Assembly (NCBI RefSeq): GCF_026151205.1
Contig: NC_087080.1
Span: 15,819,337 to 15,883,336 of the forward strand
Length of the DNA: 64,000 nt
Reading direction: 5' to 3'
Source: Bolinopsis microptera
Lineage: Eukaryota > Ctenophora > Tentaculata > Lobata > Bolinopsidae
The position numbers were made by a program, and so were the translations under genes. Positions 39,401 through 64,000 of the stretch are shown piece after piece. The number at the start of each line of letters is the position of its first letter. Position 1 is the first letter of the stretch. Below the pieces are notes generated by a model. That model ran no database searches, was not told where the DNA came from, and was given only the letters and a program-made list of their open reading frames with translations.

Positions 39401-42085
39401 ATATATGTGAGATGTGGTCTTCCCCTTCGACGATGTCCTTGAAGGGGTCCCAAGAAGAGAAGTTGATGACTCAATAGTTCTTCATGTCTGGCTAAATGAC
39501 CTGCCAGTCTCATCCTCCGTGCAGCTATCTTATCAGATGCTCTGATGAGGTGTCCATACACCTTGGCGTTAGTCTGCCGCTCTTTCCAGTCAATGTTCAG
39601 TGCCATCCTCAGCATTCTCGTATAACATCCATCAATACGTTTTGCGAGGGTCTGGCTGACAGTCCATGTTTCAGAGCCATATAGAAGGATGGACTCGACT
39701 GTAGCCAGGAACAGTCGTATCTTGAGATCTCTACGCATATCCGACTTCCATACAAGCTTCATCTGGTGACACGCTCCCCATGCCTTAGCTTTCCTCACTT
39801 CGAAGTCCTTCTCCGAACTCTTCATTCTACTACCCAAGTATACAAAGTCATCGACTTTCTCAATGTTCTTCCCACTCCCAGCAACCAGAGTCGGGTTATC
39901 ATCATCTCTTATGTTGATTCCCATGTACTTAGTTTTCCCCTCGTTGAGGTGGAGTCCAACTGAGTTGGCCGCCAGTTCCAGACTCCTGAGGAAATCTTGT
40001 GCCTCCGCAACACTATCTGTTTTAAGAGCAAGGTCGTCAGCAAAGTCCGCATCAGTGACCTTGACAGCCGGATAGCGACGACTTCTTCTAGGGTGTAGAG
40101 TAAACCCAAAGTCCCTACCCTCTAAGGACAGTGGACACTCTCATAATGTAGTCAATTACGATTATGAATAGGTAGGGCGCCAAAGTGTCTCCCTGCATCA
40201 CTCCTGCTAGAATGAAGAATGCTTCACTCAGACCATCCTCGGTAATCACACGAGCAAATGTATCTGCATACATTCTTTGTATCAAGCCTACAATCTCCTT
40301 AGGAATTCCATATGCCAGGAGGATCTTCATGAGGAGTCCACGGTGCACGCTGTCGAATGCCTTTTTGAAATCAATGAAGAGCATTACCGCGGTCAGATTA
40401 TTATATAAAGCGAGACGATATATTTTAATACTTTCAATACTTTCAATACTTTCAACACTACTATATAACAAATAATTTGAGGAAACGATGTAACAGAGTC
40501 GATCTATTTTAATGTTGCCATGGGGTGGTAAGTCCCCATACATCGTGGTCCGGTAGTTTTATTGCGTCCTAATATATGGGGGGTTCCGTACCATTTTACT
40601 GACACCACGGCATCAACTTTAACGCGACTTTCCGCAAAAACCGTAAAAGATATACAACTGAAACTTTTTTGACTGGGTCAAATGCTTTAATGGCCTCCAA
40701 ATCAGCATGAAAAAATAAAAAATTGACCAAGAAATAGGAGTTTTAGATCCCAAAATTTGGACCCCCAAGTGGTGTCAAAACCGCGAATTAAATAGGTAAT
40801 AATTATTTTAGTCTCTTGAGTCATGACACCATTTTAGGGTTATACGGGTTCCTGCTAGTTACTATAATGCTAGAGGTAATGGAAATATTTACTTCCAGGG
40901 ACTTGGAGCAAGAACGCTGGTAAATATCTGAGCGGCTACAGCGTAGGAACCGCCAAATACGACAGTCTTCTGAAGGCTCAGAGCGAATGTCTCATACGAT
41001 CCGGTCAGTTCAAACTTGCAGTTAATTTGATGATAAATTAGAAAGTTTATTGGTTATCTTGAAATTGAATACACAAAAGATATACAAAATCTCTGGTAAA
41101 ATATTAATTCACCTTAAATGCCACCTTCTCCTACCAGACTGTGGAGGTATCACATACGAGACCCTATCCAAAAAGTTCACTCTGCGAAGAGGAGTCAACC
41201 TCAAGGACAGTCCCTCCAGTGAAATCTCCTGGATGGCTATCTCAAGCGAAGGTAACCAATTATTTTTGGCGCTACATATACTAGCTATCGATAGGTAATA
41301 CTAGTGAGCGCTAGTGAACATAATAGCTTGGGGTCCCCATGTAAGCGAGTCCTTCCTATCTCTGGACTCTGTCTAATTCGCTTTTATTGTCATAAACGTT
41401 GTTATTGGATGAGATTTTCTCGGCTTCTAAAGAGCTTAACAACCACTTCTTTATTATCATTAGATAGTGACTATTATCAAGTAAACAAATCCAAACTGTC
41501 AAAGTCACGTGAGTCCTCCCGTTCAGTGGCGTAACGTTACCTGTTACCCCCCCCCCCACTGCTCCCGTTCAGTGGCGTAACGTTACCTGTTACCCCCCCC
41601 CCCCCACTGCTCCCGTTCAGTGGCGTAACGTTACCTGTTACCCCCCCCCCCCCCCCACTGCTCCCGTTCAGTGGCGTAACGTTACCTGTTACCCCCCCCC
41701 CACTGCTCCCGTTCAGTGGCGTAACGTTACCTGTTACCCCCCCCCCCCCCCACTGCTCCCGTTCAGTGGCGTAACGTTACCTGTTACCCCCCCCCCCCCC
41801 CCCCCACTGCTCCCGTTCAGTGGCGTAACGTTACCTGTTACCCCCCCCCCCCACTGCTCCCGTTCAGTGGCGTAACGTTACCTGTTACCCCCCCCCCCCC
41901 CCCCCCCCACTGCTCCCGTTCAGTGGCGTAACGTTACCTGTTACCCCCCCCCCCCCCCCCCCACTGCTCCCGTTCAGTGGCGTAACGTTACCTGTTACCC
42001 CCCCCCCCCCCCCCCCCCCACCCCCACTGCTCCCGTTCAGTGGCGTAACGTTACCCCCCCCCCCCCCCCCGTAACGTTACCTGTT

Positions 42086-44384: not shown

Positions 44385-46348
44385 GATCTCTGAATCCTGA
44401 TTGCTATTAATTATGCAAATTTTAACCAATTTTGTTCATTATTTCAGAATATTATTTAGTAGACAAATTACTTTCGAACTGTGTCCATATTATTTATTCA
44501 AATCTAAAACAAAAAAAATTATTTGACTTCAAAATTTTTCAATCTGTATAAGAGCTAATTATGACGAAGGGAGGTCACAAAGCTTCGTGCCGGGGTGTTT
44601 ATGTAAATTCTAAACCCTAACCCTAACAGTAACCCCGAAGCCATCCCATATCCATAACCTTAATCACAACCCTAACCGGGTTAGAATTAGGGTAACCCTT
44701 TGTTACCCTTATATACCATGACCCTTATAGTCATGGTATGTTGACGCGTAGCAGGGTATTTTAGTTTAAGACTTTAAATTAGAATCGCAAAATTAGCCGT
44801 ATTATTCCTCCAAACTTACGACTTAGATGGACTGAGATTAGCCCTTAAAATACAGCTTACACTTTTTACCTTATGATTGGGTCGTTATTCTAAAAAAATT
44901 TGTCAAGAAGTGTGGCTCACCGGTCACTTAACGTCACTTGTAGCGACCAAGGTCTGCGACTGGCTGCAACAGGTGCATATGATCTGTGACACGAGATATC
45001 CTTGTGTTTGGCTTGTACTAACTCTAATTGGGTATTTCGTCACAAGTCATGCGACTCGATATACATAAAACCAATACTAGGGTGGATGGTTTTTTTTTAC
45101 GTTTTTATGGAATTGGTACCGTTGTAAAGCTTACATTATGACAGTTCAGATGGCGAAATTTTTATCGAAAATGGACCTGACATTGTTTTGGAAATAACAA
45201 TAATATCAAATGAGTTTACAATAATATCCATGACCAATTTAACCATACTTAAGCTTTTTGACTACTCCTACAAGATTAGCCTTGCTAAAAGTCGCCTGAA
45301 AAAGGCACTTCTAAAGCTGCAACATGCTTATAATGATTCAGCATGGACTTCAAGCGATTATGACATAATGCAGCTGTCATTTGAAAACAATCCCCTTCAA
45401 CAAATGTAATCCAGTGTTCTCACTTCTCGGCCCACAGGTTCCTCCTATTAAAAAATTTTTGATTTTGGTAAATGTGTGCTGACTCCACCACCTATGTATT
45501 TAACCTAATATTTAGTGTATTACAGGTAGACATTGACTTAGGTAGGTATTTTTCTCTTAAGGTAGATATTAAGAATTTGGTAAATTTCCTAATTGTATGA
45601 CTATTTCCATTATTGAGACGTTTTAAATATTTGATTTAAGAGGTTTTTTTTTATAGGACTGGTTCACAGTGCGAACAGATTCCAGATTTATATATTTTTT
45701 AAGTGATATTTAATAAATGATTAAAAGAACCAATTTTAAAGTTGCCATAGTAAAGCCTTTAGGTCCAAAAATATACCCATTATGCTCACGTAAAAACAAC
45801 TCTAAATCAGTAGGCTGTCACTCTATTAATGCACCACACCGCTTCCTCCACTGCACTAAAAGTTATACAATAAATTCTTCAATCCTAATTTTGTATCGTG
45901 ATGGAGACCGGTGTCCATACAAACATTTTACTAGGTTGCCGTTTGGTGTGAGCAATAGCGAACAGCACGAACACTCCTTTGCCCCGTCAACCTATATCTA
46001 ATCTATTTAAAGAGTGACAACCATACTACACATTGAATTAGGATTCCTTTAAATATCAAATTGATTTATTGTAAACTTGTTTACTCTGTAATAAATGGCA
46101 TAAAATTGAATTTTTGTTTAACTGAATTTTTTCCCGATCCATGACTCAAAAGTGCCGAAGGCACAAAAGAGTCAAGGACAAGGGTTAGCGATCGAGGTTT
46201 TTTTTGTATATGGTAGCTTTGCGACCGTGCCTGCGTGCGAGTGTGCGTGCGTGCGTACGTGCCTGCGCGCGTTGTTGTCGCTGGTGGCAATATTTGCTTT
46301 GTATCCTACTAAGTGTAAAATGCGCTCCCCATGGTTACATAATTCAGC
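44385..46348. other. Intergenic region before the Helitron gene
   Basis: Contains telomere-like CCCTAA/TTAGGG phrases (44610-44700), two unrecognised plus frames (45188-45409 and 45717-46001) and a neat hairpin at about 46142-46172 (GACTC, AAAA, GTGCC, GAA, GGCAC, AAAA, GAGTC). The GC-rich stretch 46220-46275 alternates TGCG/TGCC. The left end of the Helitron should lie in this region or nearby, but I could not place it. Confidence 0.45.
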
Positions 46349-46354
46349 TATAAA
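46349..46354 (+). promoter_or_regulatory. Candidate TATA box of the Helitron gene
   Basis: TATAAA, about 79 bp before the first ATG (46433) and just after a GC-rich patch. Position and context fit a core promoter. This is inference from the motif alone. Confidence 0.45.
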
Positions 46355-46432
46355 TGCGACCGGGACACGGAACTAACTCTTTTCCCTCGATATTTTCACA
46401 CAAACGTTATAAATTACATTTTGATTAAAGAT

Positions 46433-49400
46433 ATGAGATTCAAGTTATTGCTAATTGCTATTCTCGCCTTTTCTTATGATTTTGGACCTGGCCCTGGCAA
46501 TTTAATAGAAAATGAATGTTATCATGATTTAACTATTGTGTGGTCCTGTGTGGTTGATTTTGTTATGGCTGTTTTAACCCCCCTCGCTCAATTATCCGCT
46601 GGAGTGATTACAAACATTCACTGTTATGTTAATAGCATACAGTATATTTGGTTACTGTTTCTACATCACTCCGTGTATTTCTCTCACAACGGGGGTGGTG
46701 TTTGTAAAGGTTTCAGATTTAGGAGGCTGTTCTTCGTGTCAAACAGGTTGAGTGCGGTGTTAGTCACATCCGTACTCTTGTCGGCTGCTTTCGTGGACAT
46801 CCGCATGCTCTCTACTACAGGTGATGAATTTCACAATTTTATCTAGGCAACGGTATAAATAAAACACGTCATAATTTATAAAGGAATAATATTATTAAAC
46901 ACTTTTATTAAATTTTATTTACAAACACTTATCAATATCATACTAATATTTAACTAGGGTTTTATAAATTGATAATAATACTGTTTCTCTCCTAGGTTTA
47001 ACGCTCTTTGAGTGTGATACCTGGATTGTATTGTGCACACCCCAGGAATTGTTTATTGTTCGCAATTCAATTCTGCCACAATGCAATCTGTGGTCAGGTG
47101 TGTGCAGTCTGCTGTTGTTGCTCTCTGGAGATATTGAGTTAAATCCAGGACCAACCACATCATTTGTGCAAACTAATGATAGAACCGTGTTTACTGACAA
47201 GAAGGTTAATTTCTTTATAATCTTCTGTGCTCCTTTATTTCAAGTATTCGCTTTCAATGCAATTGTTAACAATTCCATTTAAGATGTTTAATTAACCCCA
47301 AATTTGATAGATGCACTTATCACTAATATTCCCTATTTATCAGGTCGTTGTTATTGGAGATTCGATACCAAAGTATGTAGGGGATAGTACCAATGAAACA
47401 GAGAAAGAAAGGTTTGTGGATTCATACAAAAGTTTAGAAGTCCTTGCATGTCGAGGCAAGGCCATCTCGCAGATTACTGACTGTGTGTACAATCTCAGAC
47501 GGGCAGTTGTAGATTTACAGGCTGATATCGTTTACGTTTTGCTGGGCACCAATAACATCTGTGGTCGCTCAGCTTGTAATCAACAACAGTTTGCAGCTGC
47601 TTTCAATGAATTCATTGATGCTGTTAACAATAAATTCAAACGTGCTCATGTTATTGTCAATGTCATAATACCTAGACTTGATATTAGCCCTACCTTAATG
47701 GACAAGTTAGCTGCTTTCAATAAGGAAATACATGGTCTTTCGTTTAGGCGTGGATGTACTGTAATTTCATCCCCCTGGGACAAAACTAGAACAGATCCTA
47801 GGGTCTATCTGGCTAAGGATAACCTGCACCTTAGCTATCGTGGCAATGTCATGTTGAAGAAAATCGTGAAAGCAAATATTCACGCTTACTCACATGGCAT
47901 CTCCTCATTGCCACATGATCTACTCTGCTATGTCGAGGATAGTTTCCAACCAACGGTTATGCCCCTTTCTTCTTTTCCCAATTATGTAAACAATTCCTGG
48001 GACTCGGCTTACACGGGGTCATCTAAACCTCCACCAGACCCTGCACCTGCTCCTATTGCTTCATTAACTATTCAACCTGTCACTGATTCTCAGGAGGAAG
48101 CGTCCCATTCACAGTACTTTCCTCAACCCGTCCAAGTCCAACTTAGGACATACGCTTCTGTAACATCTCACAGTTTATCTGTTGATCGGACCACTCGCCA
48201 TTACCATCTCAATTCAGATACTACCGTTGCTCAATCTACTCGAAGTCCTCTTCCATCTGTGGGTTCTCATACATCCATACCAGTCACTGTACCACTAACA
48301 GCTCATCAATACGATGATTCCACTCATTTGACCACTAATCCTGCTGTTTCGGCATCTGCATCGGCAACTGCTTCTGCGGCTATAGCTGTTATTCGAACAT
48401 CTACTCTACCAGCTGCCGCTCAACCTATTCTGGCTCCTGCTACATCTGCTTCACCTACCACTGCATCAGCTCCTTCTCCTGCAGACCCTCCTTGTGCTCC
48501 ACTTGCCCTCCGACTTGATTCTGCTCCATCACTTCTTGAACCAGCTCCAACTACTCCTATCCCTAATCCTGTTCCTGCTACCCCTTCATCACTTCCTGAT
48601 CCAACTGCCCAACCAGATGCTACCAATGCTCCTCCATCTGCTTCAACTGACCCTATTGCATCTACGTCATCAATTTTGTCCAAGTGCCCAGATTGGCTTA
48701 GTAAAAGGTTAAGTTATTACAAGAATTTCCTATCTGCCCGTATTGTACAGGAGGTTGAGAAACTGCTTCTAGCAAAGGTTGCACAGGGTATGTTTGTTAG
48801 ACAGGGCATCAATTCTTCAAAGGTCCTTCTTTTCGGTGAGCATAAATATATTTATAACAGGGCCACTATGCATCTTAGTCCTATCCCTATTCGATCCTAT
48901 CCTATACTGCAAACAGTTTTGTTCATGGTCAATATTAAGCTTTCATCCAACTTCAACAGCATATTGGTTAATTTTTACGAGGACCCCTCTATTATCTTAC
49001 CTTATCACAAGGATGATGAGCGGCACTTGGACAAGTCTGCAAAAATTGCAACGCTCTCAATTGGGGCTACACGTAATATGGATTTTGCTGCGTGTAAAAA
49101 GGAGCGCCCCTCATATAGTCAGCAGCTTCTCTCCAATTCTTTATTTGTCATGCATCCTGAGACACAGGTATCTTTTTTTCATCGTATTGCGCCCGGTAGT
49201 TTCTCTTGTCATTCCCTTGGCTACCGTTTCAGTCTCACATTCAGAACGCTCAAGCCAAGATCTACTTCACATCCCAGCACCCTTGATAAGAATGAAGGGG
49301 TGTCGTCTACATTTACTCCTTTACCTAATCCTATTCCTGCTACCCCTTCATCACTTCCTGCTCCAACTGCCCAACCAGATGCTACCAATGCTCCTCCATC

Positions 49401-52400
49401 TGCTCTGGCTCCTGCTACATCTGCTTCACCTATCACTGCATCAGCTCCTTCTCCTGCAGACCCTCCTTGTGCTCCACTTGCCCTCCGACCTGATTCTGCT
49501 CCATCACTTCTTGAAGCAGCTACATTTACTCCTATACCTAACCCTGTTCCTGCTACCCCTTCATCACTTCCTGATCCAACTGCCCAACCAGATGCTACCA
49601 ATGCTCCTCCATCTGCTCTGGCTCCTGCTACATCTGCTTCACCTACCACTGCATCAGCTCCTTCTCCTGCAGACCCTCCTTGTGCTCCACTTGCCCTCCG
49701 ACCTGATTCTGCTCCATCACTTCTTGAACCAGCTCCAACTACTCCTATCCCTAATCCTGTTCCTGCTACCCCTTCATCACTTCCTGATCCAACTGCCCAA
49801 CCAGATGCTACCAATGCTCCTCCATCTGCTCTGGCTCCTGCTACATCTGCTTCACCTACCACTGCATCAGCTCCTTCTCCTGCAGACCCTCCTTGTGCTC
49901 CACTTGCCCTCCGACCTGATTCTGCTCCATCACTTCTTGAAGCAGCTACATTTACTCCTATACCTAACCCTGTTCTTGCTACCCCTTCATCATTTCCTGC
50001 TCCAACTGCCCGACCAGATCCACCATCACAAGAATCTTTGCAACCAGCGTATATCAAGCTACTTCTTTCATCATCCGGTGAATTTACACCACCAGCAGTT
50101 GTACACAGTCCGCAACCTTGCCATAACATAATGTTATTTTTGTCAGCCCACCAACAGCCTGCACAGCTGGCCCACTCTCTCACTTCAACAGCTTCTCCCC
50201 TTCTCTCTCCGCAGATAAATCAGACAGTTCAATTGTCACCTATCTCTTTAAAGTCGCCTATCCCCTCAGACACACTTCCATCGTCATCACCTCATTCTTC
50301 TTCACGTATGCAAATTCAGTCCACATTACCTAACACTTTTTCATTAATACCGTTGTCGATGCAATTTCAAAATAATACGAATTTATATTTGGTTCAACAT
50401 CCCTACAAGTCCCCATACTTATCATATAACAGAAATATTATGCTATCTCTAGCATTATCAACATACCAGCAGCCGACACAGCTGGCCTTCTCGAACACTT
50501 TAAGCAGTGATTATCTTTTCTTGAAGGAACACGGTTCGGTTCAATCACTACCTTTACCTCCTGCCACTGAATTACATAGTTGTTGTAATTCATATGAGCA
50601 ATTGGGTGGTGGGACTAAAAATGAATTTATTGATAATGAAGCTGCCCACTCCTCTGACGATACCCTAGGCATTGACAGTGATACATCTGACTGCATCTTC
50701 GACGACTTTATCGACGACACCCCTATCTCACAAGAGCATGTTCCCTTTTTTGACCCGTACAATGACACTCAGACAGACGAGTCAAAACATAGAAGGCTCA
50801 ATCTTACAGAGGAGAACAAACAGAAGGAGAGAGATAGACAGAAACAGAGAAGACTGAATAAGACGCTGACAGAGGAAGAAAAACAAAAGAAAAGAGACAA
50901 GGCCAAACAGGATAGACTGAACAAGACGCTGACAGAGGAAGAAAAACAAAAGAAAAGAGACAAGGCCAAACAGGATAGACTGAACAAGACGCTGACAGAG
51001 GAAGAAAAACAAAAGAAAAGAGACAAGGCCAAACAGGATAGACTGAACAAGACGCTGACAGAGGAAGAAAAACAAAAGAAAAGAGACAAGGCCAAACAGG
51101 ATAGACTGAACAAGACGCTAACAGAGGAAGAAAAACAAAAGAAAAGAGACAAGGACAAACAGGACAGACTGAACAAGACGCTGACAGAGGAGGAAAAACA
51201 AAAGAAAAGAGACAAGGCCAAACAGGATAGACTGAACAAGACGCTGACAGAGGAAGATAAACAAAAGAAAAGAGACAAGGCCAAACAGGATAGACTGAAC
51301 AAGACGCTGACAGAGGAGGAAAAACAAAAGAAAAGAGACAAGAACAAACAGGATAGACTGAACAAGACGCTGACAGAGGAGGAAAAACAAAAGAAAAGGG
51401 ACAAGGCTAAACAGTACAGACTGAATATGACAGAGGAAGACAAACAGAAAGAGAGGGATAGACTAAAGCAAGCTCGTATTCGACGGAAGCTAACTAAAAC
51501 GGAGGGGTTGCATAACATATCAGTTGAAACCATCACACAGACAATATTTTCACCCCTCTCATCTACTCAGACTTACACCTCACCCCATGACTCAACTAAA
51601 ACAAGCAATTATGACAGACAAAAACATTCTCAGTCACCACCGCGACCGTACAAATTGTTTACTTCCCCATTACCAAATTCTGACAGAGCCACAACTCCTA
51701 CAACATCACTGCCCTCTCCCAGACTTACACAGTCTGCAGAATCTACTAACGAAGCCCCAGATGGTCATGACAAACCCGATTTTGAAGTTATTTCAGCCTT
51801 CCGTAGTATTATGAAAGAATATCCTGAATATGAATGTGCTAATTGCAATACTTTAAATTTTCGTCAAAATGTTGTCAAATTTGACAGAACATCTGCCAAA
51901 TCTGGGAAACAGCAAACTTGGATTTGCAAACGGTGTAACAGTTATCGCAAGTCTAACAAAATTTGTCCACTGGCTACTATACCCATGAAACTCGAAACTG
52001 GTTCATTACCAGACAATCTTGTCATGAATCCAACAGAGACCCGCCTTGTAGCAATGCGTATCCAGTTTATGAAGATACGGTCTTTACCTGCTGGTGGCCA
52101 ACGTGGTATTAGGGGCGCGGTTGTTAATGTCCCGATTGATGCCCAGGAAAGTTGTCTAAAACTCCCTCGGAATATTCCCGATCTTGGAGTTCTTAAGGTT
52201 AAAATTAAGCGTGATGTAAGCCACAAAACTGTTGTTTTAGTTGATGATGTGGACCCTAAGAAATGCATTAATGTCTTAATATGGTTAAAAAAGCATAACC
52301 CACTGTATACTTTCACTGTACTGAATGACGATTGGATTAAAGGCAAATACAATGACCACCAAGACTTCTTTAACGTACATTTTGCAGACAATGCTCATGT

Positions 52401-55400
52401 TATCGCTTCATCGCTGGTTGACGAAATTGTAGCAAACATATGTAATGAGGGTACATACGACCAACTGCCCTATGAGCATTGTATTCAATATAAGGATCCT
52501 CTGCAAAATTTTATCCACGAAGTTCCAGTTATGGACTTTGCACCAGGACAAGGGAAGACACCGATACCTGCCTTATCTGACTCATTAGCAGAGCCTTTAT
52601 CATTTCCGAACCTGTTTCCCCTGGGGAAAGGCCATTTTCATGACTCAGATAGGCAAGCCTTGATTGCCAGCAAACTTATCCCAAAGTTAAGTAGAAAACA
52701 ATATGCTAAACATCACCTTTACTCTGCAGATAGAAAATTTGCCATGGATCCTGAGTACATATTTTTCACGCAAGCATGTGTCGAACGTGAATCAATCTAC
52801 AATGCTGCATCAATACACCTTCAAAAGTCACGCAAAATCAGCACAGATGGTATTAGGTTGACAGCCGGTCTTTTTACTAATAAACTCATAAGCACAGAAC
52901 AATTATTGAATAATATTGATGCATTTCGTTACATGAAAGACGTTAAGGGCACACCTGCATTCTGGCAGAGGGTAAAAAGCGATGCGTTGGGCATGGTTAG
53001 TCAATTGGGTACCTTCACGTGGTTCTTAACTTTTAGTTTCAATGACTTGGTTTATTCGATTCCAGCCATATTGACTTTGATGGGGATAGAACCTTCCGAT
53101 CAATTACTAACGGACATTTCGTGGCATCGCAAACATGAGCTCTTGCGTACTGATCCGGTTATAGCAGTTCGCATGTTTGATAGATATATTCGTAAAATAA
53201 TATCGTTCCTTCTCGAGAAAAAACAAATTCTTGGCGCAACCGAGGCTTATACAGGCCGTGATGAATTTGGTGACAGGGGCTCTCCACATTTTCACATGAT
53301 GTTAAAGTGTATTGGAGCACCTATAGTTGGGGTGGATTCTATTGAAACTATAATAAAGTATATAGACAAATACATCACTACTAAAAAACCTACCCCAGAG
53401 GAGGATCCTGTGCTTAGTGCTTTGGTAAAACTCCAAACACATTCTCATACAAAAACTTGCAGAAAAGGTGTTGCTGAAGATGCTTGCAGATTCTTCTTTC
53501 CGAGGCCAATTTCCAGAAGAACTATCATTGTAGATGCTGACGGAAAAGAGATGACCAATGCTGACCTACACAATATATCAGCAGACAGGAACAAAGGCCG
53601 AAAAAGTCGTGTCATCTATATTAGGCAAATCGGTGCGGAGCTTATAAATCCGTACAATGAAACGTTGCTTCGTTGCTTGGAATCTAACATTGATGTTCAG
53701 TATATTGTGGGGATGTGGGACATGGTCAATTATTTAGTTAATTATGCGACAAAAACTGAGAAGGACGTTTGCGATGCCATGAAAGACGTCAAAAATAATA
53801 TTATGCATGATGAAAACAAGAATGCTCGAGACAAATTAAAATCACTAGGAAATGTTTTCATTGACGCAAGGTCTGTTTCCATACAAGAGTCTGTATTCCG
53901 AACAACTGACCTACCCATGAAATTCTCGTATCCTAAGGTGATTTTTGTGCCATCAGACATGCCTGATCAACGCCATGGTATGTTAAAGTTCCGTCGTGAC
54001 ATGGAAAATATGCCTGAAGACTCTGATGACATATTTATGAAAGGGTACATTGATCGTTATCCACAGAGGCCTGATTCTTTGAAGGAAATGTGCTACAAAG
54101 AATTCGCTGTAAATTATGAAAAATGTTGTAATATTACGAAATCTAATGTTGACCGAACTATTCAGTTGAAGGACGCAACATTGGGAACAATGATTAAAAG
54201 GACTGGTCCTCAAATTGTTCGTAGTCACACACCATCTAGAAAAACAGATCCGGAGAAATACTACTATAGCAAGATTTGTTTATACTTTCCTTGGACTGAT
54301 GAGGCACAAATATTGGGGAATTATACTACAGTTGAGGAGTCATTTGTTGCAAAATACGACGTCATAAAATTAAACATGCAAAAATTTGAACACATTGATG
54401 AGGCAACCCTTGATTCTATGATAAGTGAAATTACCGAAGATATTTTAAATTCGCACGTGCCCATTAATGTTCACGATGACAAACTTGATCCGCGTGGTCT
54501 CGCAAGCCATCCACCAAACAATTTGAAACGTGAAGAGGATACTGAAAACTTCAAGTTCACTTACGAGGAGCCACCAATTACCGAACAAGAATACAACAGT
54601 ATGGTCAGCTCTCTCAATGAAAAGCAACGTGACATATTTTCTATGATTCAGACTCATGCTCAGAACGCGAACGATGGTAAGAAAGTAAACCAACTTATAC
54701 ACTTCATAAGTGGAGCTGGTGGTGTTGGTAAATCATTCCTCATTACAGCTATAAGGCACTGTATAAACCGCACGTTCAAAAGAGGCTCCCACAACTCTGC
54801 TGTTTTGGTTTCCGCCAGCACTGGTGTTGCTGCCGCCCTCATAGATGGACAAACCGTTCACAAGTTACTTCAACTTGATTGCCAAGAGGGTGGTTTTTTT
54901 AATCAAAAGTCTTTAAATTCTGCAAAAAGAGACAAAATGTTCAACTCCATCTTTAAGCATGTTAGGTACCTCATCATTGACGAAGTATCTATGATAGGCA
55001 ATACAAATTTAAATCAAATTCACAGCAGATTAAATCAATTATTCGGGATGTCCGGCACCAAAGACTATTTTGGCGGAATAAACATCATTTTTGTAGGAGA
55101 TCTCTTCCAAATTCCACCCGTGCAACAAACTAAAATATTCGATCCGAGGGGCCTTGCAGCACTTGGTGTCAATTTTTGGAAAGATTTCTGTACCTTTTCT
55201 GAGCTGACTGACGTAGTTAGGAGCAAAGGGGACGCGCCCTTTACTGAACTTTGTCATCGGCTAAGGACTGGGCAGCATACCGAGAAAGATGTTAGTTTAC
55301 TACAGTCAAGAGTGATACCACAATTACCAAACGTAAGTCAACTCATGGACAGTATGCTTCTATTCTCTACAAATGCAAAATGTTCTGAGCATAACAAAAA

Positions 55401-56991
55401 GTGTGTTGACCACCTTACAGCTACCACCAAAGTTCATAACATTATGGCCCATGATAAGTTCTCTAATGAGCAGTTTAACAATAGCAATCAGACTGACAAA
55501 CGTGACAAAAAAAACATCAAAGACTATGTTACTGACGACATAAACAAGACCGCTGGACTGCCAACCTCAATTATTTTAGGGCTTGGGGCACGTGTAATGG
55601 TCCGTGCAAATATCAACGTGAATGATAAATTATGTAACGGTGTTTGCGGAACTGTGAAGCACATTAAATTCAAAAATACCCCAGACACGTCTAACAGCAA
55701 CAATGTGTCTGTGAAAGTTATAGACAAGGTATATGTTAAATTTGATATGGAAAAAGTTGGTAGAAAAATAATGCATTTGTGCAACAAATTTTGCCATCAA
55801 AATTGTACACTAGCAGGTACAGTGCCGATCAGTCCTGTAGAAAAACAGTTCAAGTGCAAAAAGGTTAAGAAAACAAATGTATGGCTAAAAAGGTACCAGC
55901 TACCACTAACATTGTGCTGGGCCTCAACTATCCATAAATGTCAAGGAGTCACCTTGCAAAATGCATACATAGACCTCTCTGGCATAAACTGGAAGGCGGG
56001 CATGGCCTACACAGCTATATCACGGCTCACTTCGATGGCAGGTTTGTTTCTCATCTCCTTCGATAAAAGGTGCATAAGAACAGACCCTCAAATAGTAAGA
56101 GAATATAAACGTCTTCGATCCTTGCCTCCTTTCCAGTTAAATGATGCAACAAGTGACATCATTAAATCTCCTATTATTCAACCGAGTGAAAGTCCACAGA
56201 GTGAAAGCTCCCTTGCAAGCACTCGATTATCTTCACAGAAATTACGAACCCCACCAAGCCCTTCAAGTAGGCCTCTTTCCAAAAAACAACGAGTTGAAAG
56301 CCCTACACTACCAAACAGTAAACGGCCTTCACCAGCATCTCCCATCATTAACGGTAACCGCAAGTGTCCTCGGTTATCTTCACCTGCAATGGCTACACCA
56401 AATTCGCAATTTAACAGCCTATTGTCAAAGGGTAAGGCCTACGTCATAGACTTCAACGATGACCCGCAATCCAGCCGTTTTGCCACACAGTTGGTCACAC
56501 TGGGTTTTAATGTCCGGAGGACAATAAATCGCTTCCAGGAAGGTGTCAGCTGTGGCTACATAGCGGCGCGGGTTATTGCTAAATTGAATGCGGCTACTAT
56601 TTCAAACGTCAACTGTTTCGATATTGATGTATTCGATTGCAATTACAATGGCAGAAACAGTGCTGAACTAGACATGGTAGCGGTGGCAAATATCCATCTG
56701 GGGTTGCCTGGTTCCAAGCCTCATTTTTTGTATGCTTCACAATGCCTTACTTTGATTACTTTTTACTCCATGCTCTATTATAACAAGTCTATAGCAACCT
56801 TAAATTTCAATGAACTCAATATAGAGCAACCGTTGAGTAAGACTAGCTTCACACATAAACTCAATCAAATTGTCGTACAAGACAAGGCAATTCCACCAAC
56901 ATTTTTTACAGTTAATGCATCGGACCAGCAAGGGACACACTGGTTTGTGGTAGTTATTGAAATACCTTTAGATTCGCAGAATGAGCAGTAG
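46433..56991 (+). CDS. Giant Helitron Rep-helicase with 2A, SGNH, AlkB and peptidase-like domains
   Basis: Rolling-circle transposase. Exons 46433-46820, 46996-47204 and 47344-56991 join in frame (phases 1 and 0), giving 3414 residues. Order: hydrophobic N-terminus (MRFKLLLIAILAFSYDFG); 2A-type GDIELNPGP at 174-182; SGNH hydrolase-like 200-390 (VVVIGDS, LLGTNN, DNLHLS); AlkB-like 2OG-Fe(II) oxygenase about 735-835 (His754/Asp756, His812, RFSLTFR at 827-833); proline-rich 70-residue repeats (one before AlkB, three after); nine charged 21-residue repeats about 1371-1558; Cys4 motif (Cys 1697, 1700, 1727, 1730) and a DUF6570-like segment (FMKIRSLPAGGQRGIRGAVV); HUH motif HFH at 2181-2183; catalytic tyrosines 2329 and 2333 (NYLVNYATK); PIF1-type helicase with Walker A GAGGVGKS near 2660 and Walker B IIDEVSM near 2745, ending IHKCQGVTL and YTAISRL; C-terminal Cys3269 (GVSCGY) and His3398 (THWFVVVIE). 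The frame is intact, so the copy looks recent. Confidence 0.9.
47127..47153 (+). other. 2A-type ribosome-skipping motif
   Basis: Encodes GDIELNPGP after a Leu-rich stretch (SLLLLLSGDIELNPGP). It fits the DxExNPGP consensus, in which the ribosome skips the Gly-Pro bond. It would release a 181-residue leader and restart at Pro182, just before the SGNH domain. It lies in the second exon and is in frame with both neighbours after splicing. Confidence 0.88.
48429..50035 (+). repeat. 210-bp proline-rich coding repeats
   Basis: A 70-codon unit (starting LAPATSASPTTASAPSPADP) occurs at about 48429, 49405, 49615 and 49825. The first copy lies before the AlkB-like domain and the other three follow it. 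Units are nearly identical at DNA level, which also creates long false frames on the other strand. Confidence 0.92.
50842..51470 (+). repeat. 63-bp charged coding repeats (9 full units)
   Basis: Nine nearly identical 21-codon units (KTLTEEEKQKKRDKAKQDRL plus N), with degenerate units at both sides. They are probably helical. The spacing and basic/acidic pattern resemble, but do not equal, the 23-residue STPR DNA-binding repeats seen in some transposon proteins. Confidence 0.93.
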
Positions 56992-57334
56992 GCCTATATT
57001 ATCGTCATTCCCAGAGAAGAAGTTTATAACAAAAGCAGTAGTATACAGTTGGACATGAAATCTTTATACACACTAATTAAGATACTTCATTACCCTAATC
57101 TTATCCAAGCCATTCAATAGTAGCATTACAATTCTGGTATACTCTGCTGAATATTATTGAGATAATTATACTTATACATCATTTATCATAATATATTAAC
57201 TTGTAATACAGTAGGCTGGGATTATACACACAGTCAGTAATCTGCCCTATGTAGGTCAGCATATCGTGCAAAAAGATCACCAAGTCGAATATTACCTGAT
57301 AAAAGTGAACTAAGGTTGTGTTAGACATTTTGTC

Positions 57335-57368
57335 CCTACATGGGCTCCCGGCCGTGCGTCCATGTAGG
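57335..57368. other. Hairpin after the Helitron gene
   Basis: CCTACATGG and CCATGTAGG form a perfect 9-bp stem around a GC-rich loop of 16 bases, 340 bp after the stop codon. Helitrons carry a hairpin close to their 3' end, but no CTRR terminus follows at the expected spacing, so a role is uncertain. Confidence 0.5.
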
Positions 57369-57759
57369 AACTGTGGGGCCTTCCGAGTGATAGGGTTACA
57401 GTGACTGTTAGTAGCGAAAGTATGAAAGTTATACCAGTAGACACAATTACCGAACACAGGGCATTGGCTCGACCTCCAAGACAGGGTATCCGTGAGGACC
57501 CTGGTCGTAATCAGCTCTGCACTACTCCAGTGTATCCTGATGCCTGAAATCTTGGACACTGTCTACGTACGGGGTAGACGGCCACAGACGATTGCCTCTA
57601 TTGCTACCTTAGTTCACTTTTTGATTACAGCCAAATATTCAAAGTTGAGATGATCTACATTTTTGACACATACCTTGTATTATCAATTCTTCCCGGTATT
57701 CAAGCTTAATCTGAACAAACTTAAACACCTCTAGCAATAATTTTTTTTGGTCATATTTG

Positions 57760-58380
57760 GTGTTTGATCTTTAGATATAAGTTTACAACAGACTTGTCTT
57801 TTACGACATCTTTTCAAGCATATTTTTCCACCCATTATCAACTATTTAAGTGAATTTCTGGTATGTTTAGATAAAACATCGCTGATTATAAGTTCACCGT
57901 AATAGTTGTATTATTACACTACAATTTATTACTAATCTTATTTAAATCATTCAGTGTGATTTGTATATTTGTATCTTTACATATAAGTTTACTACAGACT
58001 ACTATTTTACGATGTCTTTTCAAGCATATTTTTCCAGAAATTACCTACTATTCAAGTAAATTTCTGGTATGTTCAGATAAAACATCGCTGATTATAATTC
58101 ATACCGTAATAGTTCTATTATTACACTATAATTTATTACTAATCTTATTTAAATCCTTCAGCATGATTTGTATTAATTGTATATTTGTATCTTTAGATAT
58201 AAGTTCACTACAGACTACTATTTTGCGATGTCTTTTCAAGCATATTTTTCCAGAAATTACCTACTATTCAAGTAAATTTCTGGTATGTTCAGATAAAACA
58301 TCGCTCATTATAAGTCATACCGTAATAGTTGTATTATTACACTATAATTTATTACTAATCTTATTATCATCACCATGATT
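57760..58380. repeat. Three tandem copies of a roughly 200-bp AT-rich unit
   Basis: The unit contains ATCTTTAGATATAAGTTTAC, CTTTTCAAGCATATTTTTCC, AGATAAAACATCGCTGATTA and TTATTACACTATAATTTATT. Copies run about 57765-57955, 57956-58170 and 58171-58375. The open plus frame 57956-58378 is a repeat by-product with no recognisable domain. Confidence 0.9.
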
Positions 58381-60090
58381 TGTATTTTTTGTATATTTGT
58401 ATCAATAACTGTAGATTAGATGTATTATAAGGATGCAGGTGGAGGACGTCCGATTGTGCTACCCGTGGGCACAACTCGTGTAATCCGGTAACAATAGAGA
58501 TCTTCTTTGACTTCTGTTGGCAAACACTCCACATATAGGTAAGTTCAGGTAAGTTCAGGTAAGTATGACCTAATTCCTATATTTAGATGACTTCTGCAGT
58601 GGACTATATACAATACTGATGCTCGTAACAGCCACAAATGTTACCATACTATCACCTAATGTCAATATCTAAAGATAAATACTGATATGATGATATTCTT
58701 TACTTTCCTCTCACATTCTAATTCACATTATATTGTAACAACTTCAGTCCAACATTCCAATCTAGGTTAGTTTATCTCCACATACTTCGATATATTTTAA
58801 AACTTACTCACTAATATACAATAATGAGATATACCCAGTTCAGCTAGTGTGTTCTGCACTTCCACAACATTTTCCAACGTTTGCTCCTCTAAACAAGTAC
58901 GCTGTCCTCTATCATTGAATGTTCACTTCGTTGCCCAAGATTGAATCAACATTCTGCAGAGTATGTAAAGCACATCTTCCAACGGTAATGAAACCTGATT
59001 TGGAAAATTTGATATTAATTTACAAATAAATCTGCAAACCACTTCCATCTAAAAATTTCACCACATGCACATGGCATAATACCTAACAAAACTCCAAAAA
59101 TGCCATAATATTAAAGGTATGTACATGATTCAAGATTATCCTCAATACTTACCTCAATGTTTTTCAGTCGCAACAAAACTTTTGATCAGAACCACCAACC
59201 ATGCCAGCATTTTCATCCACTCCAACAACACCGGTAACTTTATATTACCCTTGTCAGTCCTTAGTTAGATACCAGGTTCAATAAAGCTTTCAAAACTCTC
59301 TGAAATTAATATCATAGTAAATACCCTCTCGAGATTATAATTTTGTCATAACAGCTCCACGAAGATACTTCAAAGACATAATGCATATTAAAACTTTACA
59401 AACCTCTTTTACAGGTACCATATAGGACGTACTCTTATACTCAGTACACAATCATCATAGGCAATATCTACCACTTATCGAAAGTATCAACCACACTCCA
59501 CACATATCGGCGATTCGGCATATAGTTCATATCAAGAAATGCTATATCCGGGAATTTCATTAATGTTAAGGTTTGTTCATTAACAAATTATTACAAGAAA
59601 TAACCGTACTGAAACAATTCCTACAAAATATGTAACAGGTCACTCGTTGTACTTGTGACATCCTACAACAGCCATTTCAAATCACCAATACTTCAGGCAC
59701 CACAACAAAGTCGGATACAACAGCAACTGAGAAGAAAATTCGAACGACTACAAATCAATAGAAAGTTATAATGTACATGTTTTTTAACAACATCACCAGC
59801 TGGTAACACTCATACTACTTCACAACAACATCAGAAAATGGACGATCAGGACAGCTCACACACTCACTTTTCAATTATATAAGGTCACCACCATCAACAC
59901 TCCAAAACACTGTGCAATGATATTGCACCCACCTTACCTTCAACTCCAGTTTAATGATTTTTCTAACCAGTCCCGCCTTTACCTTTAATAATTATTAACA
60001 ATAATATGTTGGAATATATTTGTTAATTATGGGGATTTCTGGCATGTACATACAGTTGGTCATGAAAGCCTCAATTTTCTCTCCGCATAA
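58381..60090. other. Gene-free stretch downstream of the Helitron gene
   Basis: AT-rich, with a short GTAAGTTCAG repeat near 58540-58565. No exon recognised. It could still belong to the transposon's 3' non-coding region. Confidence 0.45.
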
Positions 60091-60093
60091 TGG

Positions 60094-60149
60094 CCATAAT
60101 AGTTATCTTTAATAGTAGAGTCTACATGTATTAAAGATAACTATTATGG
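60094..60149. other. Perfect 21-bp hairpin
   Basis: The left arm CCATAATAGTTATCTTTAAT(A) at 60094-60114 and its exact reverse complement at 60129-60149 enclose a 14-base loop that itself contains GTAGA/TCTAC. Candidate transposon end structure or foldback. Confidence 0.85.
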
Positions 60150-60404
60150 TCAATTTGTAGACATATAAATGTTGCTACAAATATCCACACGAGTAACGTT
60201 CTATATCTTATTAGCTATATTTTGTTCCTGGTTTACTTACCTTCGCAATTGAACACAATTGCAATATCCTACACCTAACTTTTGTTTAAGCTACATTATT
60301 TATGATGAACTGCTTTCATTGGTGCCTGCGTGATTTTCTAATCTAACTTTTCTGCTGGTGACCTATATAATAGTTGATACAATTATGATGACTGTCAAAT
60401 ATTC

Positions 60405-60605
60405 AGTGTTTATGAACACTAGCAAAAACACCACTTCATCACTTGTCAGTGATTTTCAACTCTATCAACCACCATTTCATCATTCTCCAGTACTGCAGTA
60501 TTTTCAACACTACATCATTTATCAGTGTTTTTAAACACTAAAAACCAATACTACATCATTTCTCAGTGTTTTTTAACACTACATCATATATCACTGTTTC
60601 TCAAC
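60405..60605. repeat. Cluster of AGTGTTTnnnAACACT mini-palindromes
   Basis: Five or more imperfect copies of a roughly 40-base unit with CTACATCATTTCTCAGTGTT followed by TTTAACACTA; each unit holds a short inverted repeat (AGTGTT/AACACT). Confidence 0.75.
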
Positions 60606-61639
60606 ACTGGACCAAACAGACCAAGACTGCTACCAATCAGTGCATCAACCACAATATTCAGATAACTCTATCGATGTTCTAATCTGAACACATATACATG
60701 AAGCCAACCAACAACTCCTCATTCGTTAAACGCAGTCATCATTCTTGTATCAATAATATCAACCTGCGTCAAGAAACGGTATCGTTGCCTACACTTCGAC
60801 TCAACTTAGTCTTACAAGATTGACTAATCTCCACTGAAACAGTTCCTCATATTAAATACTAAGCTTTACAAAAAGTACAAACTGATACTCCGTATTAATT
60901 GTACACCGCCCAGTTCAAAGTATTTAACCAGATGTGAGGATATTTATAATAACATACATTCAACGGAATGTTCGCGTAAAATAAGTACGGATTTGGCATA
61001 TTTTACCCCATTGAGGCTCACATGACCAACCTTAATATATGATATTATTTAATGTAAAATAAAGAAACATTATTCACTAATAGAGTTCTCCTCGTTGCAC
61101 TAACTTTAATATTATGATACATACAAAAATTGTCTCATTGTTTACCAGAATACACCACAAATTCAAATTACCGGCCGGCTGTTTCTAATATATTCTCTAA
61201 CGCCAAACGGCAACAACACGCAAACAAAACTGTACAATTGTATAACTAAATGATCATCAATTTGTACATTCAATATCCTATCCAGCTGTATCACGCCACA
61301 TTTAGATTATTCCCACATCATTGGCTAAGATTTTCAGTATTACTATCACGCCACACTTGCGCAGTCCAATCACAAGGGTAGCATGTATCACGAGTTCATT
61401 TTTTATCCAACGCGAAACAATCTCAGGAATCTTAAGACTATGTAATCACTAGATCGCGCGGCTTTTTCAACCTTAAATGTACAATTATCTGCGCGCGGCT
61501 TTCTCCCCTTTCGAAATTTAAAATTTTATTGGCAAACGTTCATGTTCCGTTTTACACGTCAGCAACCCATAACTTTAAAGTTTAAAAGCATTTATAGCAC
61601 AATACCAGATCATTATTTGAATAACACACTTTTCGCTAT
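60606..61639. other. Gene-free stretch
   Basis: No exon recognised. Two GCGCGCGGCTTT-like phrases lie at about 61455-61503. Confidence 0.4.
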
Positions 61640-61890
61640 CATCACCTGGGGACCCAAGGCTATTATGTTCATAAACATAAAGATTCGGCGGAATGACAGA
61701 CTGAGCACCGCCCAGTATCGCTATCCCAGTTACTCACTAATGTTCAATTAATTATTTCAAACCTTGCCTCACCACGACTTAATTTTACTTTGGCGGACCT
61801 CAGGCTATTACATATTTAATATTATGTTCATAAATATATAAAATAGAGATTCGACGGAATGACAGCAGACAGGCTTAGCGCGGCCTAATA
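61640..61890. repeat. Dispersed GC-rich repeat, inverted copies
   Basis: CACCTGGGGACCCAAGGCTA, then TTATGTTCATAAACATAAAG, then ATTCGGCGGAATGACAG is the reverse complement of the family at 42331-42410. A second, more diverged copy follows at about 61805-61890 (AGATTCGACGGAATGACAGC). Confidence 0.8.
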
Positions 61891-62616
61891 AAACTTACTT
61901 GTTACTAGTTGATTGCACTTAAATTACAACAATTAATATAATTTTTAATTCCAATTTACTGCGCAGTGCAACCCAGTAGTTCAACATATTACATATTACA
62001 AACAATTTTGTCAACAAATCTGCCGCGTCGACAATTAGAATTTGTTGATATATTGAGTAAGTATTATTTAATATAGTTTAACCATTTCTATTATATAGGA
62101 AATATATATGTATATAGGAGATATCGCGGATCGGGAAATTGAGCGGTCGCCCACAAAAGAAATGCGGCCGCATTTCTTGTTGTTTAACTGATATAAAGAA
62201 ATACGGTCGGTGATCCAGTATTGAGCATATGTGCAACTGTGTGAGTTCATTATTCTAATTGCCCCCTTCGAGCAGCTAAGGTGCATCTCACTTGCAGTCA
62301 TGTGACCGAGATCACGTGATAACACCTTTAACTAACTTATAGCCCTGAGGATCAATTGGTACAATGTGTATTGAGGTAAATTGGTCGGGGTATGTTTTAT
62401 TATATATAATATCAGTATTTACACTGAAACATTCAATAGCTCTCCTTAGCTGTTGGAACAGTGAAAGACCAAAATATTAGATGTTAACCCTGAGCAAATT
62501 GTAGCTTGTAGTTGTACATTTAATATAATCAATAATACTACATACTACCTTGTCGGACTTTATTTAAACGGACTTTAGTTCATAGTTGGATGCTAGAAGC
62601 CCAAGTTTACAATTTA
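61891..62616. other. Gene-free stretch with a 22-bp palindrome
   Basis: The perfect palindrome AAGAAATGCGG/CCGCATTTCTT lies at 62157-62178. The minus frame 62068-62325 is not recognisable. Otherwise AT-rich. Confidence 0.5.
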
Positions 62617-64000
62617 CCGCAGAAATTTAGCTCGTACCGTTTTAAAACCAGATCTCGGAGAAGAGTTCACCTTAGATTATTTTAAACCTAATTCTCGGGC
62701 AGACGTTTTACAATCTCCGAACAGTGTGACTATAATTATATTATATACAATCTCCGAACAGTGTGACTGTATTATGTACAATATCCGAACAGTGTGACTG
62801 TATTATGTACAATATCCGAACAGTGTGACTGTATTGTGTACAATCTCTGAACAGTGCGACTATATTGTGTACAATCTCCGAACAGTGTGACTATATTGTG
62901 TACAATATCCGTACAGTGCGACTATATTGTGAACAATCTCCGAACAGTGTGACTATATTGTGTACAATCTCCGTACAGTGCGACTATATTGTGTACAATC
63001 TCCGTACAGTGCGAATGTATTGTGTACAATCTCCGAATAGTGCGACTATATTATGTACAATATCCGTACAGTGCGACTATATTGTGTACAATCTCCGTAC
63101 AGTGCGACTATATTGTGTACAATCTCCGAACAGTGTGATTATATTGTGAACAATCTCCGAACAGTGTGACTATATTGTGTACAATCTCCGAACAGTGCAA
63201 CTATATTGTGTACAATCTCCGAACAGTGTGACTATATTGTGTACAATCTCCGAACAGTGTGACTGTATTATGTGCAATATCTGAATAGTGTGACTGTATT
63301 GTATACAATCTCCGTACAGTGCGACTGTATTATGTACAATATCCGAACAGTGTGACTGTATTGTGTACAATCTCCGAACAGTGTGACTATATTGTGTACA
63401 ATCTCTGAACAGTGCGACTATATTGTGTACAATCTCCGAACAGTGTGACTATATTGTGTACAATCTCCGTACAGTGCGACTATATTGTGTACAATCTCCG
63501 AACAGTGTGACTATATTGTGTACAATCTCCGAACAGTGCGACTATATTGTGTACAATCTCCGAACAGTGCGACTATATTGTGTACAATCTCTGAACAGTG
63601 TGACTGTATTGTGTACAATCTCCGAACAGTGTGACTGTATTGTGTACAATATCCGTACAGTGCGACTATATTGTGTACAATCTTCGAACAGTGTGACTAT
63701 ATTGTGTACAATTTCCGAACAGTGTGACTATATTGTGTACAATCTCCGAACAGTGTGACTATATTATGTACAATCTCCGTACAGTGTGACTGTATTGAGT
63801 ACAATCTCCGTACAGTGCGACTGTACCGAGATCTGGTTTTAAAACGGTACGAGCCAAACTTCTGCCTGAGAATTAGGTTCAAAATTCAAAATACTCTAAG
63901 GTGAACTTTACTCCGAGATCTAGTTATAAATTGGTACGATTGTACACAATATAGTCGCACTGTTCGGATATTGTACACAATACAGTCACACTGTACGGAG
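62617..64000. repeat. 31-bp satellite array with inverted spacer
   Basis: About 35 tandem units of a 31-bp sequence (ACAGTGTGACTATATTGTGT, then ACAATCTCCGA) occupy about 62712-63820, with sites varying between A/G and C/T. The array is bordered on the left (62629-62659) and right (63826-63855) by inverted copies of GCTCGTACCGTTTTAAAACC, then AGATCTCGG. After a spacer, units resume in the opposite orientation from about 63940 to the window end. Confidence 0.95.

Follow-up and report, generated by a model that had tools for sequence, protein, structure and literature searches.

Rolling-circle transposons of the Helitron2 type have been described, in the part of PMC4067079 that defines them, by asymmetric terminal inverted repeats, palindromes at both ends and a RepHel protein without an endonuclease. 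The SGNH gene texim of fish occurs in association with Helitrons; a role in transposition has been suggested for it and is left open (PMC4021074), and a CR1 esterase is mentioned in the same source. In orchids, Ty3/Gypsy elements encode an AlkB protein that acts in vitro as an m6A demethylase on single-stranded RNA (PMC9289625), and sea-urchin NLR proteins have 2A sequences with signal-sequence activity (PMC4981915).

In this paper we analyse a stretch of 64,000 nucleotides from the ctenophore Bolinopsis microptera (the window), in which a Helitron RepHel shares one open reading frame with an SGNH hydrolase-like domain and an AlkB-type oxygenase domain. All coordinates are positions in the window, and all features lie on the plus strand except the two palindromes, to which no strand is assigned.

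Results

An uninterrupted frame of 3226 codons extends from 47311 to 56991, and three predicted exons, at 46433-46820, 46996-47204 and 47344-56991, can be spliced at GT/AG sites without loss of the frame to give 3414 residues and one stop. These are exactly the numbers of the initial annotation, where an exon of 9648 bp with two in-frame upstream exons had been proposed. The predicted N terminus in exon 1 has hydrophobic segments that appear signal-sequence-like by eye; a similar hydrophobic first frame was seen by eye in one copy of family B, a second family of the element. Exon 2 encodes a 2A-type motif that had not been annotated before, SGDIELNPGP (DIELNPGP at 47130-47153), which fits the consensus D[VI]ExNPGP and lies upstream of the SGNH domain, with its final proline at residue 182 of 3414. 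Copies of family B have SGDVETNPGP in the frame of an upstream exon, and no 2A motif was detected in family C, the third family. A literature search combining Helitron, 2A peptide and non-LTR found no paper, and a word search of the main text of PMC12846837 found no mention of Helitrons or transposons.

Exon 3 encodes, in this order, SGNH, AlkB, a linker, DUF6570, Rep, PIF1 and a C-terminal domain, and a Pfam search of the 3226-residue frame (whose numbering is used for the residues that follow) placed all five named domains above their curated cut-offs. The SGNH (GDSL) hydrolase-like domain (47350-47847) matches Lipase_GDSL_2 (PF13472) at residues 14-179 with an E-value of 8.7e-11 and 43.1 bits against a cut-off of 32.9, and has the Ser, Asn and D-x-x-H blocks expected of an SGNH/GDSL hydrolase; the blocks GDS, GTNN and D-x-L-H are retained in the aligned sequences of family A, to which the window element belongs, and of families B and C. 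The family B sequence also exceeds the profile cut-off, and the piece from family C reaches 31.5 bits against 32.9. Presumably the domain is an esterase whose substrate is a lipid or an acyl compound. The AlkB-type 2OG-Fe(II) oxygenase domain (48679-49266) matches 2OG-FeII_Oxy_2 (PF13532) at residues 512-645 with an E-value of 2.5e-17 and 64.2 bits against a cut-off of 31.2. It has N-x-Y, the iron triad H-x-D...H and R-x-[NS]-x-T-x-R, which we take to be the motifs of AlkB and other 2OG-Fe(II) oxygenases, and N-x-Y, H-x-D, H and R-x-S-x-T-x-R are retained in all five of five aligned sequences.

Two tandem repeats follow, one of 213-bp (71-residue) units at 49307-50019 that encodes a Pro/Ala/Ser-rich linker and one of 63-bp (21-residue) units at 50842-51425 that encodes a charged stretch, and behind them lies DUF6570 (51988-52323; PF20209, 7.9e-11). 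The HUH Rep nuclease (52702-53304) matches Helitron_like_N (PF14214) with an E-value of 2.8e-23 at residues 1798-1998 and has the motifs SPHFHM and Y-I-D-K-Y. The latter, in which the two catalytic tyrosines of a two-tyrosine HUH Rep would be expected, is F-I-D-[KR]-Y in the aligned copies of families B (n=2) and C (n=2). The PIF1-type helicase (54613-56280) matches PF05970 with an E-value of 3e-24 at 54613-55233 (residues 2435-2641), includes the Walker A motif GAGGVGKS and has its later motifs assigned by position. An HUH Rep and a PIF1 helicase thus occur in one frame, as in the Helitron superfamily, and no endonuclease family matched this frame in Pfam at E<=1. Scans of viral contigs with the RepHel region, the AlkB alignment and the C-terminal alignment found no relative.

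The C-terminal domain (56419-56988) was delimited by alignment and has conserved Cys...His motifs. It is 38-40% identical in five other aligned sequences, the motif Q-x4-C-G-Y is invariant in six of six, and N-x5-G-x-H-W is present in the five of six that extend far enough. No Pfam or NCBIfam model matched the segment at E<=10, a PDB search gave nothing meaningful (a sole row with an E-value of 0.45), and a structure model from the single sequence had a pLDDT of 38.9, too low for use. D-x-x-C is the catalytic block of OTU proteases. An OTU assignment was rejected, with G or N at that position in six aligned sequences and no Pfam match, as was a VTD deubiquitinase, whose invariant D-x-H is missing (G-x-H stands there in the five of six sequences that reach the His). 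The peptidase-like domain of the initial annotation is upheld as a conserved segment with papain-like-looking Cys/His motifs, and its designation as a peptidase finds no support in profiles, PDB or structure. For the processing of the polyprotein that the initial annotation suggested, the 2A motif would be a simpler candidate than cleavage by a C-terminal peptidase.

The whole element covers 46126-62181 (16,056 bp) and is bounded by 5' and 3' ends that recur in the genome. Among the matches listed, the 5' end was found at at least 39 other places (37 starting at the first base and 2 at base 3 or 5) and the 3' end at at least 38, with one further match that covers an inner stretch only; both tallies include a copy with 97% identity (C9:11.08-11.10M) that has the same two ends as the window element. 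Among the matches listed, seven short derivatives of 552-576 bp also have both ends. The element begins with ATTTTTTCC and ends with CTTGTT. Its asymmetric terminal inverted repeat has a 5' arm, TTCCCGATCC (46131-46140), whose exact reverse complement forms the 3' arm, GGATCGGGAA (62128-62137), and equivalent arms were seen by eye in families B and C. A palindrome near the 5' end (46142-46174) is predicted to fold as DNA into a nested hairpin (z -4.04 for 46126-46190, with none of 200 shuffles equally good). At the 3' end the palindrome AGAAATGCGGCCGCATTTCT (62158-62177), which ends 4 bp before the end of the element, is perfect by sequence, and its fold energy alone is unexceptional (z -0.81 and -1.42 in two runs). 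The termini of the element are not the 5'-TC...CTRR-3' of canonical Helitrons, which also have a 3' hairpin, insert at A/T and make no target duplication. With inverted repeats, palindromes at both ends and a RepHel without endonuclease, the locus is apparently a complete, recently mobile Helitron2-type rolling-circle transposon.

Family B has an identical domain order and is about 47% identical to the window element; three of its copies, on the large contigs C3, C10 and C12, have open frames of 3321, 3388 and 3366 codons. Family C is also multicopy, with three loci, of which two have frames of more than 2100 codons; it carries SGNH, and a Pfam scan, made on one of its copies, detected no AlkB. 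As family C is multicopy in spite of this, AlkB seems dispensable for transposition as such. Neither these two families nor the element limits nor the AlkB frames outside Helitrons described below were part of the initial annotation. In a genome as repeat-rich as this one, the fusion might be an artefact, produced by one element nested in another or by a wrong join in the assembly, which we regard as extremely improbable given that the frame is continuous in the window and in the three family B copies, that AlkB is present at 11 of 11 near-full-length SGNH loci, and that a single set of element ends encloses everything. The fusion of a Helitron RepHel to SGNH and AlkB that had been proposed for this DNA is borne out, both segments lying above their profile cut-offs and recurring in other copies within one frame and in an unchanged order, which speaks against a separate nested element.

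Between the two diverged families that share the SGNH-AlkB order dN is below dS, and silent sites are mostly saturated. This excess of dS, the recurring domain order and the long open frames of family B speak against a chance arrangement. AlkB is the most constrained domain, with a dN of 0.14-0.17 and a dS of 1.0-1.2, against a dN of 0.34-0.39 in Rep and helicase. This conservation could also stem from a more recent transfer of AlkB from one family to the other, a reading that is not supported: silent-site differences were 35 of 66 in AlkB and 226 of 345 elsewhere in one comparison (p 0.07), and 37 of 61 and 229 of 346 in the other (p 0.47), and the slightly smaller value for AlkB in the first leaves room for such an exchange.

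Outside Helitrons, AlkB is fused upstream of SGNH at 29 of 137 scored loci, in frame at 28, in an order that is the reverse of that in the Helitrons. It stands in front of a reverse transcriptase at at least 23 of the 137 loci, where about 0.3 were expected, and 114 of the 137 have no reverse transcriptase behind them among the matches listed, the best 150 of 6502 reverse transcriptase candidates being considered. Among these same 150, no link was found for the AlkB-SGNH frames of about 478 codons or for the family of about 540 codons that is nearest to the Helitron AlkB. No endonuclease directly behind an AlkB locus was seen by eye among the best 150 of 1705 candidates. Elements with AlkB in front of a reverse transcriptase likewise use a single-stranded intermediate. 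The AlkB domains outside Helitrons are 29-46% identical to the Helitron AlkB. A query with the Helitron SGNH had no match at E<=1e-3 to the SGNH of the non-Helitron AlkB-SGNH frames; with the order also opposite, direct capture from the SGNH frames that the genome now has outside Helitrons was rejected, and AlkB is the only one of the two domains whose similarity supports a common source. Helitrons and these non-Helitron frames may both have obtained AlkB and SGNH from one shared pool.

Discussion

We propose that a tethered ALKBH3-like enzyme would strip methyl lesions or marks from the single-stranded intermediates of the element, a reading drawn from sequence comparison. During translation the hydrophobic N terminus would be set free at the 2A motif, and the remainder would travel as one protein. 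Rep would nick the element and remain attached to its 5' terminus, the helicase would meanwhile displace a single strand, and the ALKBH3-like domain would reverse N1-methyladenine and N3-methylcytosine adducts on the displaced strand, on a circular intermediate or on the element mRNA, keeping the intermediate or mRNA copyable. For the C-terminal domain a thiol hydrolase is one possibility, which would then fill the role of the OTU and VTD domains of other Helitrons. That this is a complete Helitron2-type element whose 2A, Rep, helicase, ALKBH3-like, SGNH and C-terminal parts act in this way has, in our judgement, about an even chance.

One function suggested in the initial annotation is that AlkB clears silencing methylation from the element's DNA. 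Enzymes with the AlkB fold oxidise the methyl groups of bases, and the expected catalytic residues are present in the window. In the PDB search ALKBH3 was the best match (1.2e-13), followed by ALKBH2 (1.4e-9), both of which are repair-type enzymes and are not known as erasers of 5mC or 6mA; since these are the closest solved relatives, lesions on single strands are favoured over epigenetic marks and de-silencing appears improbable. Slightly more improbable still is that SGNH and AlkB are chance captures without a role. Helitrons do capture genes, the role of texim beside fish Helitrons is open (PMC4021074), and AlkB was not found in the family C copy scanned; yet two families with mostly saturated silent sites have kept one order, the catalytic residues expected of AlkB are retained, and AlkB is more constrained than Rep and helicase.

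A more serious contender, though we think it unlikely, is that AlkB acts on RNA and clears m6A or m1A from the mRNA of the element that encodes it, so that this mRNA would escape epitranscriptomic control. This has been proposed for the orchid Gypsy element, whose AlkB acts on m6A RNA in vitro (PMC9289625), and the AlkB domains found here in front of reverse transcriptases belong to elements with an RNA intermediate. However, the orchid enzyme is ALKBH5-like, whereas ALKBH3 is nearest to the window AlkB and again to the one non-Helitron AlkB sequence that was read, and the window AlkB is fused to a DNA-acting RepHel.

Returning to the action of AlkB on exposed single strands, we tentatively suggest, as a view we consider somewhat less likely than not, that in this genome ALKBH3-like and SGNH domains form an accessory kit shared by two unrelated transposon classes, rolling-circle and reverse-transcriptase elements, which guards or unmarks single-stranded DNA or RNA intermediates and whose modules have been exchanged. 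If so, the passage of modules between these classes would mean that transposons and their hosts generally clash over single-strand methylation; that one genome pairs AlkB with SGNH in one order within Helitrons and in the reverse order elsewhere would point to exposed single-strand methylation as the common obstacle. If the AlkB domain works, this would be a new case, in the literature we found, of a DNA transposon with its own base-demethylating enzyme, and one fused to the machine that produces single-stranded DNA. Families with and without AlkB in the same host offer a natural comparison.

Comparison with known systems

In CR1/L2-type retrotransposons, ORF1 can be laid out with an SGNH esterase. 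The window protein resembles these ORF1s in its SGNH domain, and N-terminal 2A sequences in having a 2A motif near the N terminus (PMC4981915), and differs from both in its RepHel; no AlkB in CR1/L2-type ORF1s was found among the papers listed. The orchid Ty3/Gypsy element is likewise a transposable element that has recruited an AlkB-type enzyme, but it is an LTR element with a separate ALKBH5-like ORF (PMC9289625), while in the window AlkB is nearest to ALKBH3 and is fused into the protein of a rolling-circle element.

Among Helitrons, those bearing VTD or OTU domains are similar in encoding polyproteins with extra Cys-hydrolase domains (PMC9741609, in its passages on these elements), whereas the window protein is without the D-x-H and D-x-x-C motifs and the AP endonuclease. 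Helentrons too have a RepHel that carries accessory enzyme domains (PMC4067079); assignment to them was rejected, their defining C-terminal AP endonuclease not being found in the 3226-residue frame. The texim-associated Helitrons of fish share the link between an SGNH hydrolase and a Helitron, but texim is a separate intron-bearing gene, and the Helitron lies either in the last of these introns or behind the gene (PMC4021074), whereas the window SGNH lies inside the RepHel protein together with AlkB. With Helitron2 the window element shares the inverted-repeat arms, the palindromes at both ends and the endonuclease-free RepHel (PMC4067079), and differs from it in that its protein adds 2A, SGNH, AlkB and C-terminal domains.

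Results

The main open frame of the window element reads without interruption for 3226 codons (47311-56991). Joined at predicted GT/AG splice sites to two upstream exons (46433-46820 and 46996-47204), with the third exon starting at 47344, it gives a protein of 3414 residues with a single stop; re-joining the exons returned the three-exon gene of the initial annotation. Pfam matches to Lipase_GDSL_2 (SGNH), 2OG-FeII_Oxy_2 (AlkB), DUF6570, Helitron_like_N (the HUH Rep) and PIF1 all exceed the curated cut-offs, which bears out the SGNH, AlkB-like, Rep and helicase domains proposed there, and we hold the architecture as described to be very nearly certain. The SGNH domain is presumed to be an esterase. 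A peptidase-like C-terminal domain had also been proposed; its conserved Cys and His motifs are present (Q-x4-C-G-Y and G-x-H-W). Neither Pfam nor NCBIfam has a profile that matches the C-terminal 190 residues at E<=10, and from its sequence the domain is perhaps a thiol hydrolase.

Exon 1 encodes hydrophobic segments, and exon 2 contains the 2A motif SGDIELNPGP. SGDVETNPGP lies at the corresponding place in an upstream frame of family B, one of two further Helitron families of this genome, where the remainder of the exon is by eye little conserved; the same pattern search found no 2A motif in the stretches of family C, the other family. A study of sea-urchin proteins describes N-terminal 2A sequences that double as signal sequences and recoding elements (PMC4981915), and by analogy the 2A region of the window element may be used in both ways.

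Ten further copies were fetched, two of family A (the window element and its relatives), five of family B and three of family C. Of the family A copies, one is 97% identical but broken in its frame, the other degenerate and rearranged; three family B copies have a single frame (3321, 3388 and 3366 codons) and two have the gene over two frames; the frames of two family C copies span 2221 and 2176 codons, and the third copy is broken. Families A and B share about 42-48% identity over Rep and helicase. In the one family B copy scanned with Pfam, SGNH (4.7e-10) and AlkB (4.5e-23) both exceed their cut-offs. For family C, Pfam was run on the initial 802 codons of one frame; it found no AlkB there, and an SGNH match (3.2e-7) whose 31.5 bits fall just short of the 32.9 cut-off, the first SGNH block sitting in another frame further upstream. 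Where the Rep motif of the window element reads Y-I-D-K-Y (52702-53304), the four family B and C copies aligned (L009, L017, L022 and L023) have Phe for the first Tyr.

Genome-wide, SGNH matches covering at least 197 of the 210 residues of the window domain number 11, and AlkB adjoins every one, in two pieces at C10:4.30M. Nine of the 11 also have the C-terminal domain; the other two, C7:0.055M and C10:13.25M, gave no Helitron_like_N match in the genome search either and look truncated. At C1:17.98M the C-terminal domain is present, with no Helitron_like_N match among the matches listed. Five shorter SGNH pieces were found, one alone at C12:7.84M and four at the degenerate family A locus C11:15.49M, together with AlkB and C-terminal pieces.

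Between the window element and family B, AlkB is 72-76% identical over the compared segment, with dN of 0.14-0.17 and dS of 1.0-1.2, against dN of 0.34-0.39 for Rep and helicase, 0.61-0.64 for SGNH and the C-terminus and 0.49-0.54 for the remaining segments; outside AlkB, dS is mostly saturated and hence not computable. At fourfold sites AlkB diverges nearly as often as the other segments (37/61 vs 229/346, p 0.47; second comparison 35/66 vs 226/345, p 0.07), so that AlkB looks more constrained rather than just younger, the second comparison leaving some room for the latter. All five aligned sequences, one of them from outside Helitrons, retain the residues that an AlkB enzyme should have.

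The best 150 of 726 genomic AlkB candidates comprise 13 in Helitrons (at least 63% identity) and 137 others (29-46%), the latter for the most part in frames some 340-750 codons long; many of these have identical scores and frame lengths and are therefore probably multi-copy. Some of the 137 loci have SGNH behind AlkB and others reverse transcriptase, the two pairings being seen separately. Among the best 150 of 424 PF13472 candidates, SGNH follows AlkB on its strand after 84-184 nt at 29 loci (28 in the same frame) and lies upstream or opposite at none. Among the best 150 of 6502 reverse transcriptase candidates, 23 loci have one within 8 kb downstream on the same strand (24 pairs, 18 spaced by 2.5-2.9 kb), none upstream and two on the opposite strand; chance would give about 0.3 (computed over the large contigs, with the sizes of two approximated). 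From this layout, the reverse-transcriptase-linked loci are likely CR1/L2-like non-LTR elements whose first frame carries AlkB; an endonuclease search (best 150 of 1705 candidates) did not place them. At one non-Helitron locus, L054, 518 of the 632 codons of the frame were examined; AlkB (2.6e-18; nearest to ALKBH3, 6.7e-15) is followed by an SGNH-like start with the GTNN block and no GDS, no SGNH profile match occurs within these codons, and none of the 150 best reverse transcriptase candidates (of 6502) lies behind it.

The element spans 46126-62181. Its 97% copy, which lies elsewhere on this large contig, starts and stops at identical letters. The best 40 of 465 matches to the 5' end are the window element, the 97% copy and 38 others over the first 129-156 bases (36 start at base 1, the remaining two at base 3 or 5); the best 40 of 445 to the 3' end are the same two, 37 others that extend to the final base (matching over 59 bases in 36 cases and over 86 in the other) and one inner-only match. 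Seven end pairs among the matches listed are spaced 552-576 bp apart and thus represent short derivatives. The terminal arms TTCCCGATCC and GGATCGGGAA, which lie 5 bases inside the 5' end and 44 bases inside the 3' end, are exact inverse copies; by eye, both family B and family C carry arms of their own at matching positions. A hairpin lies at the 5' end (fold z -4.04); the 3' palindrome is perfect, its fold energy not exceptional.

The window copy is bordered by a direct repeat of 10 nt, GTTTAACTGA (46116-46125 and 62182-62191), which a rolling-circle element would not be expected to have; by eye, it was not seen at other copies with both flanks compared. A 31-bp satellite of about 36 copies (62709-63822) starts 528 bp past the 3' end. 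Elsewhere the window holds 82 near-perfect copies of ATGGTGG with several frames open (6095-6669), a tandem array of ~54 bp with long C runs (41516-42070) and, by eye on the minus strand, a 598-codon frame resembling a host papain-type cysteine protease (18086-19882) and pieces resembling retrotransposon reverse transcriptase (39286-40558).

Discussion

HUH Rep nicks DNA and binds 5' ends, and PIF1 is the unwinding enzyme. N1-methyladenine and N3-methylcytosine are removed oxidatively by ALKBH2 and by ALKBH3, the latter with a preference for RNA and single strands. With the architecture, conservation, ends and multiple copies of the window element established, we propose that the tethered AlkB domain would clean or unmark the single-stranded intermediate of the element, a mechanism to which we give roughly even chances. 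AlkB might instead relieve silencing of double-stranded DNA; the single-strand role fits better, since the same enzyme class occurs both in RNA-using elements and in those using single-stranded DNA.

Among the papers listed from an openly licensed library for Helitrons with AlkB, no title or opening of an abstract describes such a fusion, and the SGNH-AlkB-Helitron combination was not found in print, as judged from searches of that library. Fungal Helitrons with other captured domains are described in PMC4289320. A Helentron was considered and rejected, as the window element has no AP endonuclease. Its arms, 5' hairpin and 3' palindrome fit Helitron2 as described in PMC4067079.
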